This document shows positions 28,590 to 49,915 of a DNA stretch of 64,000 nucleotides, piece after piece. The notes under the pieces are model-generated. The model saw nothing but the letters and a program-made list of their open reading frames with translations, had not been told where the DNA came from and did not search any database. This stretch comes from Wohlfahrtiimonas chitiniclastica DSM 18708 (GTDB lineage: Bacteria > Pseudomonadota > Gammaproteobacteria > Cardiobacteriales > Wohlfahrtiimonadaceae): NCBI RefSeq assembly GCF_000375345.1, contig NZ_AQXD01000003.1:186001-250000 (forward strand). Direction: 5' to 3'. How positions within the stretch are numbered: position 1 is the stretch's first letter; each line of letters opens with the position of its first letter. The position numbers and the translations under genes are program-made.

Positions 28590-28748
28590 AATGTTGAACA
28601 ATCCTACAAAAAAAATAATTGAGTGATCCGAAATGGTACTAAAATAGTCCTAAGCTTACCCGCTGTATAGCTGTCGATCATTATTCATACAGATGATCAA
28701 TGTAACAAATGAATTGCATCGCACAGGAAAATCAAAGTGCTCGTTGAT

Positions 28749-36283: not shown

Positions 36284-38527
36284 TTAAAAACTGATGGTGA
36301 CGGATAATCCTGCATTGATGCCAGGCTCAGTCCCACGCACCACATCACGCGGTGTGGTTTGATTCATGCGATTGCCCCAGTTCCAATGCTTTTTATCCAA
36401 TAAGTTATAAATCCCCGCATTGATGCGGATGTTATCATTCGGGCGATATTCGCCCACTAAATCAAGCGTTCCGTAGCCAGGCATTTTGGTGACGCCATTG
36501 TCACGCAACGCAGTTGAAATATCTTTAGCCTTTTTCGGTGCCACAAGCTTTAAATTGAGCCCCACAAATGCTCTATCACTGTAGCCATAGCTCATACCGA
36601 TGATGCCTGTTAAAGGCTCGACGCTGTCAATCGGCTCTTTGGTTTGATTGTCTTTGCCTTTTGCATAAGCGGCATTGAGATTTAAGCGCAACTCAGCATC
36701 GTTGTTTTGTAACTCAAGCACACGAATGCTCGCTTTACCTTCTAAGCCATAAATGTGGCTTTTATCTAAATTCACAGATTGATGTAAACGCACGCCATTT
36801 CGATGCCCCACCACTTTAAGCTCTTCAATGAAGTTGTCATATTTGGTGTAAAACGCCGCAACAGACGCTGAATTGATCTCATCATTAAAGTTCCAACCGA
36901 GCTCAAAAGTTTTGCTCGTTTCTGGTTTTAAATCAGGATTTGAGATCGCGGTGTAACCATGGGCAAGGTTCGAAAATCCAACATTGACCGCATTAAAACT
37001 CGGGGCTTTAAAGCCTTCCGCATAGTTTGCATAGATGGTGTGATGATCATGGGGATAATACAGCACCGCTAAACGCTTCGATAAATGCCCTTTATTTAAG
37101 CCAACAGGCGCCAATACACCCGGATTGGCTTCTAAAAATGGTCCGCCTTGCTGAACTTTTAAAGAATAATGATCATAACGCAACCCTAAAATCACCTCTA
37201 AACGATTGTCTAAAAATCCGATGCGATCTTGTGCAAATAAACCATATTCATGAATTTTAGAATCTGGGAAGCTTTTATTCGGGAAGGTTTGCGTTTCTGT
37301 GGATGCACCTGTTTGACGATTAAAAGAGTGACCTAAACGCAAAGTCTTCACTTTCGTGTGTTTATAATTTGCGCCATAGCTCAATTCATGGGAGATTGAA
37401 CCCGTTTCCAAGGCTTTATAGAACTCTGTATTAAAGCCCACTTGCTCATTTTTAAAGTGAGATTGTCTGAAGCGATCTTCGGTAAAAACGCCGCGTGCTG
37501 TATGTTCACGCGCTTCTGTCACCGATTGACGCGCTTTGGTAGATTGGTAATATCCCATCACATGCCCACGATCAAACATTGGCGTTTCTACATTAAAGTC
37601 ATAACGTACATTCACTTGCTGACGAATGTTGAGCATATTTGTATGGTGCGCAGAAAACGTTGGCATGCCGGGAAATGCCATAGGCTTTTCACCTATTCTA
37701 TTGGCAGCATCATCCCAAGCGTGACTGTTAAAATACTCATAACTTAAAGCAAAACGATGTGCATCACTTGGCTCAAACGCCACTTTAGATAAAATATTTT
37801 TAACATTCGCTTCTGCAGGATTCGGATGCGTGCGACCTGCGCCTAATAAATTTTCGCTATAGGCTTTGCCTTCATAGTTGCGGCGCTCGTAATGTTTACG
37901 AAATGAGGCGCGCACAAATGCAGATAAAGTATCGGTGATTTTTGCCGCAGCCGTTGCCGTCACCAATTGATCACGATCTGCCGTGCCATAGCCAAATTTA
38001 ACTTCACCGCCATAGCGCTGCCCTTCACGAATAAAATCGCTCGGATCTTTCGTTTCCATAAAGATGCCGCCTGCTAAGGCACTGCTGCCATATAACATTG
38101 AAACAGGGCCTTTAATGATGTCAATGCGCTTCATGGCATCGACATCAAAATAACCTTGCCCCATGTCTGTATAACCACCGCCAAATTTAAATGCCATCGG
38201 AATCGGTGCGCCATCAATGGCAATCATCACGCGATCATCACCCACGCCGCGAATCCGCACATTGTCCATGCGCCCTGTGGACGTCATGTCCACATTCACG
38301 CCTGCTTCATAACGCAAGGCATTGCTTAAATTCGTTGCCCCAACGCGTTCCATGGTTTCACTGTCCACTTGAGATAAACTCGTTGCGGCTTCTTCGGCAA
38401 CGCGCTCATCTTTCAGGGCTGCCACCACAACACGCGTGGTGCCCACATCTTTTGGGGTTGAGGATTCTGCGGCGGCAGTGCCGATCAATGACATTAAAAC
38501 AGTGAACAAAATGGTGCGCTGATGCAT
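36284..38527 (-). CDS. TonB-dependent haem/haemoprotein outer-membrane receptor
   Basis: 747 residues with a Sec signal (cleavage near TAAAES). The plug domain spans ~35-150 (VRIRGVGDDRVMIAIDGAPI, IDIIKGPVSMLYGSSALAGGI); the rest is a 22-strand barrel ending in Phe (VTISF). FKAPS and NPDL, with a His between them (LAHGY), correspond to the FRAP/NPNL box region of haem receptors. It binds haem or haemoproteins and imports haem with TonB-ExbBD, none of which is in the window. AAGGA precedes ATG 38527. First gene of the operon, behind the Fur-like promoter at 38583-38613. Confidence 0.93.
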   Translation of the reverse strand: MHQRTILFTVLMSLIGTAAAESSTPKDVGTTRVVVAALKDERVAEEAATSLSQVDSETMERVGATNLSNALRYEAGVNVDMTSTGRMDNVRIRGVGDDRVMIAIDGAPIPMAFKFGGGYTDMGQGYFDVDAMKRIDIIKGPVSMLYGSSALAGGIFMETKDPSDFIREGQRYGGEVKFGYGTADRDQLVTATAAAKITDTLSAFVRASFRKHYERRNYEGKAYSENLLGAGRTHPNPAEANVKNILSKVAFEPSDAHRFALSYEYFNSHAWDDAANRIGEKPMAFPGMPTFSAHHTNMLNIRQQVNVRYDFNVETPMFDRGHVMGYYQSTKARQSVTEAREHTARGVFTEDRFRQSHFKNEQVGFNTEFYKALETGSISHELSYGANYKHTKVKTLRLGHSFNRQTGASTETQTFPNKSFPDSKIHEYGLFAQDRIGFLDNRLEVILGLRYDHYSLKVQQGGPFLEANPGVLAPVGLNKGHLSKRLAVLYYPHDHHTIYANYAEGFKAPSFNAVNVGFSNLAHGYTAISNPDLKPETSKTFELGWNFNDEINSASVAAFYTKYDNFIEELKVVGHRNGVRLHQSVNLDKSHIYGLEGKASIRVLELQNNDAELRLNLNAAYAKGKDNQTKEPIDSVEPLTGIIGMSYGYSDRAFVGLNLKLVAPKKAKDISTALRDNGVTKMPGYGTLDLVGEYRPNDNIRINAGIYNLLDKKHWNWGNRMNQTTPRDVVRGTEPGINAGLSVTISF

Positions 38528-38757: not shown

Positions 38758-38832
38758 AAATATTTGCCATTAATTTTGTAAATTACGGTATACATATAGC
38801 TGATTTCGATAACAAAAAACATGAGGATAACT

Positions 38833-40194
38833 ATGAAAAAATTACTCATCCGATTGGCGATTCTTGGTGCTGTCGGCGTCACCGCTGCGGTGGCTGGCTC
38901 TTTTATGATCATTAAAAGCCGCACCCATGACATTGACACATCCACACAAGCCACGAGCCCAGAACAACAACAAGCTTTAATCGCTCAGGGTGAATACATT
39001 GCAAGGTTATCCGACTGCGCGGCGTGTCACACAGTGCCAGGTGGCACAGAATATGCTGGTGGTTTAGCGATGCAAACACCCTTTGGCGCCATCTATTCAA
39101 CAAACATCACACCAGATAAAGAGACAGGAATTGGCAATTACACGCTGCAAGAATTTGCCAATGCTGTCAAACATGGTGTGCGTAAAGATGGTGCGCCGCT
39201 TTATCCTGCGATGCCTTATGCCTCTTACACCATCATGCCCGATTCAGACATGGTGGCGATGTATGAATACTTTATGAATGCGGTGCCCGCTGTGAAGCAA
39301 GAAAATGCACCCACAACTTTCCCTGCCATCATGAGCATGCGTTGGCCAGTGGCTTATTGGCAGATGCTTTTTGCTCCCATCCGTGAATTTAAAGGCAACA
39401 GCGAATTAAGTGGCATTGAAAATCATGGTGCGTACATTGTCGAAGGTCCAGGTCACTGCGGCGCTTGCCATACACCACGCGGCATTGCGTACCAAGAAAA
39501 AGCCCTCACGAATGATTCAAGTGATCTCTTCTTATCCGGTGCACTCATTGATGGTTGGCGTGCAAAAAGTTTACGCGGCGAAGGTCAAGGCTTAAAAACT
39601 TGGTCTGAAGATGAAATTGTGGAATTCTTAAAAACAGGTCGCACAGATAAAGTGGCTGCCTTTGGTGCAATGGGCGATGTGGTTGAACACAGCTCGCAAT
39701 ATTGGACAGAACAAGATTTAAATGCTGTGGCCAGCTACTTGAAAACATTGTCCCCAGCGCCTGGTAAATCCTTAGAGTTAAAAACTCAACCCGATACCAC
39801 AACAGATCTTCTCTTAACCGATACATTCAGAGCGCCGGGCGCCGTATTGTATATGGAACATTGTACAATTTGTCACCGCGTTGATGGTGAAGGTGTGCCA
39901 CGCATTTTCCCTGCGTTGAACCAAAACACTGCCATCACGGCACAAAATGCACAATCGGTCATTCAAATCACCTTAGAAGGCGGCGTGATGCCTGCAACAC
40001 CGGCAGATCGCATGGCATTTGGCATGCCCTCATTTGCACACTTAAGCGATGAAGAAGTGGCAACGGTCATCAACTTCATCCGCAACTCATGGAACAACGT
40101 ATCCCCTGAAGTGAGCCCACAAGATGTGGCTGAGATTCGTCATTTCCTTGCCAATAAAGCCCCAAACATTTCCTCAGTGAAGGAGGATAAATAA
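38833..40194 (+). CDS. Triheme cytochrome c, dehydrogenase-subunit type
   Basis: 453 residues. An N-terminal membrane anchor or uncleaved signal (about 4-26) precedes three class-I cytochrome c domains with CAACH (~57-61), CGACH (~207-211) and CTICH (~336-340). Met ligands are plausible in YPAMPYASY and FGMPSFAHL. The layout matches the triheme subunit of membrane alcohol, gluconate or sorbitol dehydrogenases, which passes electrons to ubiquinone or an oxidase. No flavin or PQQ dehydrogenase subunit is adjacent. GAGGAT sits before ATG 38833; the frame from 38821 is too long. It overlaps the next cytochrome by 1 bp (TAATG). Confidence 0.88.
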   Translation: MKKLLIRLAILGAVGVTAAVAGSFMIIKSRTHDIDTSTQATSPEQQQALIAQGEYIARLSDCAACHTVPGGTEYAGGLAMQTPFGAIYSTNITPDKETGIGNYTLQEFANAVKHGVRKDGAPLYPAMPYASYTIMPDSDMVAMYEYFMNAVPAVKQENAPTTFPAIMSMRWPVAYWQMLFAPIREFKGNSELSGIENHGAYIVEGPGHCGACHTPRGIAYQEKALTNDSSDLFLSGALIDGWRAKSLRGEGQGLKTWSEDEIVEFLKTGRTDKVAAFGAMGDVVEHSSQYWTEQDLNAVASYLKTLSPAPGKSLELKTQPDTTTDLLLTDTFRAPGAVLYMEHCTICHRVDGEGVPRIFPALNQNTAITAQNAQSVIQITLEGGVMPATPADRMAFGMPSFAHLSDEEVATVINFIRNSWNNVSPEVSPQDVAEIRHFLANKAPNISSVKEDK

Positions 40195-41096
40195 TGAAAA
40201 AACAACTCATTTTATCACTCAGCACCCTTGCCCTCTTCGTTGCGACTGCTTCAGCATCTGCGTATACATTAACCCCCGCTGATCCACAAAAATATCCAAT
40301 GGTGAATGCAGAAGGTCAACCTTTACCCGATTATGTGGTGCCATCCGATTTAGACATTGAAAAAGAGCCAAATGCTGATCAAATCTTTTACGGTAAAGAG
40401 CTCTTAAACGCCACAAAACGTTTATTGCCTGACAATGTTGGCGCGATGATGAACTGTAACAGCTGCCACATTGACGAAGGTAAAGCAGAATATGGCGCGC
40501 CTTATTTAACCACGGTGCATCAGTATCCTAAAGTGATGCCGCGTGCAGGTAAATTGGTCACCATCGAAGGACGCATCAATGGTTGTTTCCAGCGCTCTAT
40601 GAATGGTAAACCGTTAGATCCTGAATCAAAAGAGATGAAAGCCATGGTGGCTTACATGACATGGCTCAGCGCTTCTCAACCAGAAGGTGCTAAAGTTAAA
40701 ATCATGAATGCAGGGCCAATTGATGAATCTTTAGTGCCTGATCCTGTCAATGGTGCACGCATCTATGCTGAACATTGTGCCTCTTGTCATGGCAATGATG
40801 GCGAAGGCTTAAAAGATCAACGCGGCAACATCATTTTCCCACCACTTTGGGGCGATGAATCCTTCAACATCGGCGCAGGGATGGCGCGTACTTATAAGGC
40901 CGCCGCTTTTGTGAAATACAATATGCCCATGGGCGTGAGCACACACGGTGATTGGGGACAAGGCAATGGCGGTACATTGACCGATCAAGAAGCTGTGGAT
41001 GTGGCTGAATTCTTCACCCATCAACCGCGCCCTGACTTTGCAGGCAAAGTCAATGACTGGCCAAATGGTAAAAAACCAAAAGATGCCCGTTATTAA
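40194..41096 (+). CDS. tsdA: Dihaem cytochrome c, thiosulfate dehydrogenase (TsdA)-like
   Basis: 300 residues with a Sec signal (cleavage near SASA-Y). Two haem sites: CNSCH (88-92) and CASCH (~258-262 region of the second domain, in AEHCASCHGNDGEG). INGCFQRSMNGKPL (128-141) is the conserved TsdA block; Cys131 is in the place of the axial Cys ligand of the active-site haem. TsdA oxidises thiosulfate to tetrathionate (or the reverse) in the periplasm. AGGAGG at 40181-40186 precedes ATG 40194. Coupling to the triheme gene suggests that protein is the electron partner. Activity and direction are inferred. Confidence 0.8.
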   Translation: MKKQLILSLSTLALFVATASASAYTLTPADPQKYPMVNAEGQPLPDYVVPSDLDIEKEPNADQIFYGKELLNATKRLLPDNVGAMMNCNSCHIDEGKAEYGAPYLTTVHQYPKVMPRAGKLVTIEGRINGCFQRSMNGKPLDPESKEMKAMVAYMTWLSASQPEGAKVKIMNAGPIDESLVPDPVNGARIYAEHCASCHGNDGEGLKDQRGNIIFPPLWGDESFNIGAGMARTYKAAAFVKYNMPMGVSTHGDWGQGNGGTLTDQEAVDVAEFFTHQPRPDFAGKVNDWPNGKKPKDARY

Positions 41097-42286: not shown

Positions 42287-42314
42287 TTGACATTTACGCA
42301 TATCCTGATAATAT
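42287..42314 (+). promoter_or_regulatory. Promoter of the candidate small RNA
   Basis: TTGACA (42287-42292), 16-bp spacer, then TGA-TAATAT, an extended -10 (TAATAT 42309-42314). Predicted start near 42321, just before a stable hairpin. A near-palindrome around the -10 (TGATAATATATCA) resembles part of a Fur box. Confidence 0.65.
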
Positions 42315-42320
42315 ATCACT

Positions 42321-42403
42321 CGACATCTAGAAATTCTGGATGTTCTCCTCCATATCCTCCTTTGGTGGTTATTTTGCCGAAATTCAGTTTTCGGCTTTTT
42401 TTT
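42321..42403 (+). ncRNA. Candidate anti-Shine-Dalgarno small RNA (~83 nt)
   Basis: An intergenic unit with its own promoter and terminator and no credible ORF. The 5' hairpin has arms 42323-42330 and 42336-42343 (8 bp, one G-T). Next is a pyrimidine-rich middle with UCUCCUCC (42344-42351) and UAUCCUCCUU (42353-42362); the latter copies the 16S anti-Shine-Dalgarno CCUCCUU. The 3' hairpin GCCGAAA / TTTCGGC (42376-42382, 42389-42395) is followed by eight T residues. A hairpin-seed-terminator plan of this kind is typical of trans-acting, often Hfq-dependent, small RNAs. UAUCCUCCUU is complementary over 10 nt to the tsdA-like ribosome-binding site (40180-40189). Expression and targets are untested. 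Confidence 0.6.
42376..42403 (+). terminator. Rho-independent terminator of the candidate small RNA
   Basis: 7-bp stem GCCGAAA / TTTCGGC, 6-nt loop, eight T residues (42396-42403). Works only on the plus strand. No gene ends nearby: the Sel1 stop is ~320 bp upstream. Confidence 0.9.
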
Positions 42404-42436: not shown

Positions 42437-42616
42437 TTGAGAATGAGAGTTGTTTCTCATTGATGCCATTAAGAATGGTCAAGCGATTTGGCGGAATCAA
42501 ACATAAAATGCGAGTAATCATCATTATTAGACGATAATCATACGCAAATAAGTAATAATATTATCAATCACTTATATTATTTGCCCGCTATGATTTTTCA
42601 GGCAATCATGTATAAT
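42437..42616 (+). promoter_or_regulatory. Bacterioferritin upstream region with Fur-like sites
   Basis: A 7-bp inverted repeat AATGAGA / TCTCATT (42442-42448, 42455-42461) inside GAGAATGAGAGT-type sequence resembles a Fur box. GATAATCAT at 42533-42541 and AATAATATTATCA at 42555-42567 add further GATAAT-like hexamers. A consensus TATAAT at 42611-42616 is the likely -10, 38 bp before bfr. Regulator identity is inferred. Confidence 0.45.
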
Positions 42617-49585: not shown

Positions 49586-49852
49586 TTAACGACGTAATTG
49601 TAAACGCTCAATCAAAGTTTGATAACGCGCTAAATCTTTACGTTTTAAGTAGTCTAACAACTTACGACGTTGGTTAACCATTTGTAATAAACCACGACGT
49701 GAGTGATGATCTTTTTTGTGTTCATCAAAGTGAGCACGAAGCGCATTGATGTTGTTTGTTAAAAGCGCAACTTGTACTTCAGGAGAACCTGTATCGTTTT
49801 CGCCGCGAGCAAATTCAGCAACAATGGCTGCTTTTTTTTCAGTTGTTAACAT
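49586..49852 (-). CDS. rpsO: 30S ribosomal protein S15
   Basis: 88 residues (E. coli 89). [56 protein letters not shown] (partly quoted: [22 protein letters not shown]) is unmistakable uS15. It binds 16S rRNA helices 20-22. GGAG lies upstream of ATG 49852. TATAAT at 49921-49916 (minus) provides a -10 about 64 bp upstream. Confidence 0.97.
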
Positions 49853-49915
49853 AAAAAATAAAACTCCAAATAAAATTAATTGTTGTCAATGGCGATGACA
49901 GCATAATTGTGGGTG

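Follow-up and report, generated by a model that had tools for sequence, protein, structure and literature searches.

Anti-Shine–Dalgarno (anti-SD) small RNAs (sRNAs) have been studied mainly in Burkholderia, Neisseria and Bordetella, and the comparison reported here extends them to a whole further order. The double-hairpin RNAs of Burkholderia (ncS03, ncS05, ncS27 and ncS62; bdhR1), which correspond to the Rfam family RF02278 (Betaproteobacteria toxic small RNA), occur in three to five copies per genome and consist of a CUCCUCCA...UCCUCC...UGG hairpin followed by a terminator. Their CU-rich seed is complementary to ribosome-binding sites, and overexpression of members such as ncS27 slows growth (PMC5688073). 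In NmsRA and NmsRB of Neisseria (RcoF; RF02877), the first anti-SD region lies between stem-loops SL1 and SL2 and the second lies in the loop of SL2, and the terminator follows (PMC5362039). Mutation of either anti-SD region of NmsRA abolishes the repression of five of the six targets (prpB, prpC, sdhC, sucC and fumC), and mutation of the second region also that of the sixth, gltA; the NmsRs respond to RelA (PMC5362039). S17 of Bordetella has a short conserved region complementary to ribosome-binding sites followed by a terminator, is described as closely similar to bdhR1/RF02278 and represses a sigma54 activator (PMC11722255). In Xanthomonas sX13, C-rich loops repress mRNAs with G-rich motifs (PMC3771888).

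The sRNA gene described here lies within the window (the whole stretch of DNA that was analysed, 64 kb in length) and shares features with each of these systems. Compared with the Burkholderia RNAs it has an additional 5' hairpin and is normally found as one clear copy, and compared with NmsRA and NmsRB it is not tandem. The active form of S17 is cut by RNase E from a longer transcript, whereas the promoter of the window sRNA lies directly at its 5' hairpin. The likeness to sX13, which differs in having three C-rich loops, concerns the predicted mode of repression. As judged from sequence and layout, the RNA belongs with the known anti-SD sRNAs and is RF02278/NmsR-like. The best explanation of the locus, which we regard as very probable, is a stand-alone trans-acting anti-SD sRNA that would block ribosome-binding sites; in Wohlfahrtiimonas, its activity may in addition be set by a sponge RNA.

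Architecture and conservation of the sRNA gene

The gene is laid out as a TTGACA-N16-TGaTAATAT promoter, a 5' hairpin, CUCCUCCAUAUCCUCC and a terminator with eight T residues, and its parts are as follows.

42287–42292, + strand: −35 element TTGACA, from the sequence and a promoter scan
42306–42314, + strand: extended −10 element TG-A-TAATAT (TG at 42306–42307, TAATAT at 42309–42314)
42322–42403, + strand: anti-SD sRNA, predicted transcript of about 82 nt, from fold, conservation, covariation and the RF02278 match
42322–42344, + strand: 5' hairpin, 10 pairs in the minimum-energy fold, variable in sequence with pairing kept
42346–42351, + strand: anti-SD copy 1, UCCUCC, near-invariant, partly inside the 5' strand of the core hairpin
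42347–42368, + strand: core hairpin CCUCCA-(loop UAUCCUCCUU)-UGGUGG with a U–U mismatch, the loop of which exposes anti-SD copy 2
42355–42360, + strand: anti-SD copy 2, UCCUCC, in the core hairpin loop, invariant in 24 sequences
42369–42375, + strand: unpaired U-rich UUAUUUU ahead of the terminator, invariant within the family
42376–42403, + strand: intrinsic terminator (stem 42376–42395, T8 42396–42403)

The −35 and −10 elements are separated by a spacer of 16 nt and transcription is expected to start at about 42321–42323. The promoter, the two UCCUCC motifs and the T8 terminator that a sequence-only reading of this DNA had proposed are all present between 42287 and 42403; the 5' hairpin that it proposed also exists, although at 42322–42344 it is slightly longer than the 8 bp suggested. 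The predicted transcript folds at −25.4 kcal/mol, compared with −12.8 ± 2.6 kcal/mol in shuffled sequences (z = −4.8; 0 of 200 shuffles), and the pattern CTCCTCCN4CCTCC occurs once in 64 kb and not at all in 100 shuffles. The promoter is the best of five promoter-like sites returned by the scan of a 2-kb region, in which 6.1 ± 2.5 are expected from shuffles; the scanner alone is therefore not decisive in setting this promoter apart from chance, and it is conservation that carries the case.

The comparative data are the strongest evidence, and confirm, that 42322–42403 is an sRNA gene. A covariance model found the RNA in 30 of 32 genomes of the order, with one clear copy in each, and a nucleotide search of 57 genomes found the element in most of the order; the conserved hairpin–UCCUCC–terminator unit for which the sequence-only reading had suggested a covariance search is present, and its 5' and terminator stems covary. 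The promoter is also retained, with TTGACA or TTGACG in nearly all relatives, a spacer of 16–17 nt and a TATAAT-like −10 element. Across 24 species the core CUCCUC(C/U)AYAUCCUCCUUUGGUGGUU is near-invariant while its flanks diverge, and the 5' and terminator stems alter in sequence with their pairing kept.

Covariation was scored on two alignments. An earlier mixed alignment had placed the 5' hairpin of one family wrongly, with no pairing there, and was superseded by a model-guided alignment of 24 sequences. In the latter, pairing holds in 98.1% of cells, and the covariation score of 0.451 compares with 0.175 in shuffles and at most 0.086 for slid structures; changes on both sides are seen at 14 of 21 pairs, and compensatory changes on both sides are found in 72 cells, where shuffles give 18.9 ± 4.2. 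By element, both-sided changes occur at eight of nine pairs of the 5' hairpin across the order (97.4% of cells paired) and at six of seven pairs of the terminator stem, and the core hairpin is 100% paired in the 24 sequences, with a C–G/U–G change at one pair. Since this alignment leans towards the structure, independent support for the covariation comes from an alignment of 11 sequences of one family made with MAFFT only, in which 98.3% of cells are paired and the score is 0.319, whereas shuffles give 0.193 and slid controls no more than 0.127.

At the level of the class, a sample of 274 genomes contained related cores (mostly ACUCCUCCAUCCUCCUUUGGUGGUU) with a terminator in 75, so that the models supplied here find them in about a quarter of the sample, and anti-SD copy 2 is retained in most of these matches. 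In one genome elsewhere in the class (L132, G099:C80), two sRNA copies lie about 155 bp apart and a third lies on another contig, an arrangement that recalls the tandem siblings of Neisseria. In one family of the order (f3, for example L018 and L024), the sRNA promoters carry a G+C-rich GCGCCCC after TATAAT; such a stretch can accompany stringent control, and NmsR is controlled by RelA.

Family relationship, mode of action and a candidate target

The best Rfam match of the sRNA is RF02278, with 31.3 bits and an E value of 2.5e-4, below the gathering score of 50 bits, which places the RNA formally outside the family by curated score. The alignment is nevertheless full length, with model positions 1–64 of 64 falling on 42341–42403 and taking in both hairpins and the CUCCUCC/UCCUCC motifs; nearly all relatives tested in the order score 28–36 bits and some class-level matches reach 48.7 bits. 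The NmsRb model (RF02877) also aligns end to end, with 19.1 bits (E = 1.9) against a gathering score of 52. The folds and the covariation reproduce the NmsR/RcoF layout of three stem-loops and two anti-SD regions, one of them in the SL2 loop. Tandem sibling copies, a trait of NmsR/RcoF, were not found in the genome of the window, which gave one strong match only. At the curated Rfam thresholds, the window yields no match for the anti-SD sRNA; the sole match is a ribosomal S15 leader (RF00114) elsewhere, at 49799–49909 on the − strand, with 50.4 bits. The description of the RNA as new, made in the sequence-only reading, therefore applies to this exact RNA, for which Rfam offers nothing above its curated cutoff, and does not apply to its kind, as RF02278, NmsR/RcoF and S17 are known.

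From the layout and behaviour of RF02278, NmsR and S17, it follows that the sRNA most likely occludes ribosome-binding sites. In the proposed mechanism, the UCCUCC copies would pair with several mRNAs at their purine-rich ribosome-binding sites and keep ribosomes from entering, as experiments showed for NmsRA in Neisseria, while the 5' and terminator hairpins would protect and terminate the RNA. As a mimic of the sequence with which the ribosome itself docks, the RNA probably silences many genes. A trans-acting sRNA with an anti-SD seed, as originally proposed, is supported by conservation, covariation and family resemblance, and apart from iron (see below) the earlier functional reading is sound.

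Targets were sought by a pattern search of the window's own genome and by duplex energy for the genes of the window. The pattern AAGGAGGAT-N1-7-ATG has a single site in the whole genome. It coincides with the ribosome-binding site of a gene for a c-type cytochrome that lies 2 kb upstream of the sRNA.

40180–40196, + strand: candidate target ribosome-binding site AAGGAGGATAAATAATG of a c-type cytochrome gene (CDS 40194–41096)

This site sits within the end of another cytochrome gene; the two genes overlap (38821–41096, + strand) and occur as a pair in three of five relatives compared from the genus, and the site itself is also present in two further Wohlfahrtiimonas genomes. Its predicted duplex with the sRNA has an energy of −20.7 kcal/mol and ranks tenth of 56 window genes by raw energy, a ranking that was not used to name targets because it is dominated by pairings away from the ribosome-binding site and by doubtful start codons. 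The cytochrome gene at 40194 has the best-matching site in the genome and is a candidate, predicted target; target naming is weak, since ribosome-binding sites match the seed by nature and Shine–Dalgarno complementarity is thus unspecific.

A candidate sponge RNA in Wohlfahrtiimonas

The second match of the sRNA model in the window's own genome is antisense (C3:160649–160729, E = 0.007). On the opposite strand of this match there is a TTGACA-N16-TGGTAATTT promoter, a hairpin, an unpaired GCAAAAUAACUACAUAGAGGAUAUG and a terminator, and the unit is a candidate sponge for the anti-SD sRNA.

C3:160625–160733 of the same genome, + strand: candidate sponge RNA, outside the window, about 25 kb to the left of its start

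The candidate gene lies 67 kb from the sRNA gene; judging by the ends of the encoded proteins, it is flanked by an acetylornithine-aminotransferase-like gene and by an ORF that follows an adenylate-kinase-like gene. All six Wohlfahrtiimonas genomes carry the candidate gene, in which the complementary stretch is near-invariant while the loop and flanks vary, and its terminator stem shows changes on both sides with pairing kept. A covariance model gave no convincing relatives outside Wohlfahrtiimonas, the matches inspected resembling terminators. Elsewhere in the window's own genome, a search for near-perfect complements of the sRNA core (up to three mismatches) returned weak scattered sites only.

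The complementarity to the sRNA core amounts to 9 + 13 bp in the genome of the window. The exact two-block complement CAAAATAA-N2-10-GAGGATAT is present in five of the six Wohlfahrtiimonas genomes, and the sixth has an A to G change that still pairs (G–U); in the remaining genera of the order, this pattern matches only the complement of the sRNA itself and one unrelated site, and a reversed-pattern control gives no match in all 32 genomes. The predicted gain on pairing is −17 to −21 kcal/mol in four genomes, in which the full-length duplex is equalled by 6, 0, 0 and 0 of 1000 shuffles, the value of 6 being that of the window genome. The single-stranded stretch GCAAAAUAAC-UACAUA-GAGGAUAUG of the candidate sponge would pair with 42351–42359 and 42365–42377 of the sRNA, so that UUAUUUU at 42369–42375 and the bases on either side of it form the second block in the duplex predictions. 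In the predicted duplex, the core hairpin is open and the UCCUCC of its loop is mostly covered, and the 5' hairpin of the sRNA and both terminators stay largely folded. By opening the core hairpin and hiding the loop seed, the sponge would set the activity of the sRNA in Wohlfahrtiimonas. The sRNA core does not vary among the Wohlfahrtiimonas genomes and so offers no compensatory change by which to judge this pairing.

A perfect TTGAT-N4-ATCAA, the half-site arrangement of FNR, lies upstream of the candidate sponge in all six genomes, with differing N4. The classical activating position of FNR is −41.5, and the box, which precedes the assumed start by about 44–46 bp, comes close to this spacing without matching it. 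An FNR orthologue is encoded in the genome, above the curated cutoff, and the candidate sponge is possibly under oxygen control by FNR. Within the 64-kb window, there is a single TTGAT-N4-ATCAA, at 28744.

The nearest known precedent, by analogy, is CrfA of Caulobacter, a dedicated RNA that sequesters the repressor sRNAs SisA–D of the alpha-r8 family (PMC12559287), a role which for the RNA described here is predicted. CrfA is induced by carbon starvation, whereas the candidate sponge, restricted to a single genus, carries an FNR-type box. In sequence and prediction, the candidate has what marks sponges of the CrfA/QrrX type: it is a gene-like unit standing on its own, and its complementarity to the sRNA seed is conserved. 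We tentatively consider a two-RNA switch, in which the genus-specific, FNR-linked sponge would neutralize the anti-SD sRNA and the oxygen supply, acting through the competition of these two non-coding RNAs, would set the translation of respiratory and metabolic mRNAs; this reading falls somewhat short of being probable. That the second RNA is instead a target under regulation, or an inverted copy of the sRNA gene that has decayed and merely looks complementary, is rather doubtful: it did surface as an antisense match of the sRNA model, and an inverted copy would be complementary without any function, but its promoter and T-tailed terminator are oriented with the complementary strand, its paired stretch is near-invariant in the six species while loop and flanks change, and its terminator stem still pairs through changes on both sides. 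If the sponge is real, the anti-SD sRNA would have an antagonist of its own that is known from a single genus, a case that would bear on how a seed that could match very many ribosome-binding sites is held in check.

Genomic neighbourhood and other readings of the locus

Two bacterioferritin genes, bfrA and bfrB (TIGR00754), adjoin the sRNA, and a receptor gene lies 4 kb upstream.

36284–38527, − strand: TonB-dependent heme/hemoglobin-type receptor (TIGR01786 and TIGR01785 over cutoff)

With such neighbours, and with NrrF and RyhB as precedents for iron sRNAs, the RNA could be taken for a Fur-controlled iron regulator of the adjacent bacterioferritin genes, similar to RyhB, PrrF or NrrF. We consider this very unlikely. 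The bacterioferritin neighbourhood is common to all five other Wohlfahrtiimonas genomes compared and is found in none of the other genera; in sister genera (of which Ignatzschineria is one) the sRNA gene lies near fabI, fumC, lspA and others, names that we presume from the protein starts without a family search. No conserved Fur box was found at the sRNA promoter, where the best match, 11 of 19 positions, is not kept in relatives and is at chance level, being reached or exceeded at several hundred positions of the window. The Rfam models gave no match of the sRNA to PrrF or any other iron sRNA, and the related NmsRs are under RelA rather than Fur (PMC5362039). The GATAAT on which the sequence-only reading had partly based an iron response is part of the extended −10 element, with no conserved palindrome, and the sequence evidence lends the iron inference no support.

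A cis-acting role as the 5' leader or attenuator of the bfr operon is less probable still, to the point of being hardly credible: the sRNA is on the bfrA strand, 251 bp upstream of its start codon, but a strong terminator (42376–42403) and then about 250 bp separate the two, and in other genera the unit precedes unrelated genes on either strand, which argues that it is free-standing. A small-protein gene is the least plausible reading, with next to no chance of being right, and was dropped: the open frame of 31 codons from ATG 42340 to TAA has no Shine–Dalgarno sequence ahead of its ATG, which lies within a hairpin arm, the substitutions across it track base-pairing, and the frame is not coding because sister genera lack the ATG (GACGTT) and another family of the order has a one-base shift, so that no ORF is conserved and the earlier remark that none is supported by a ribosome-binding site holds.

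Between the sRNA terminator and bfrA, at 42442–42461, there is a perfect inverted repeat, AATGAGA-N6-TCTCATT, which may serve the bfr genes, and not the sRNA, as an operator.
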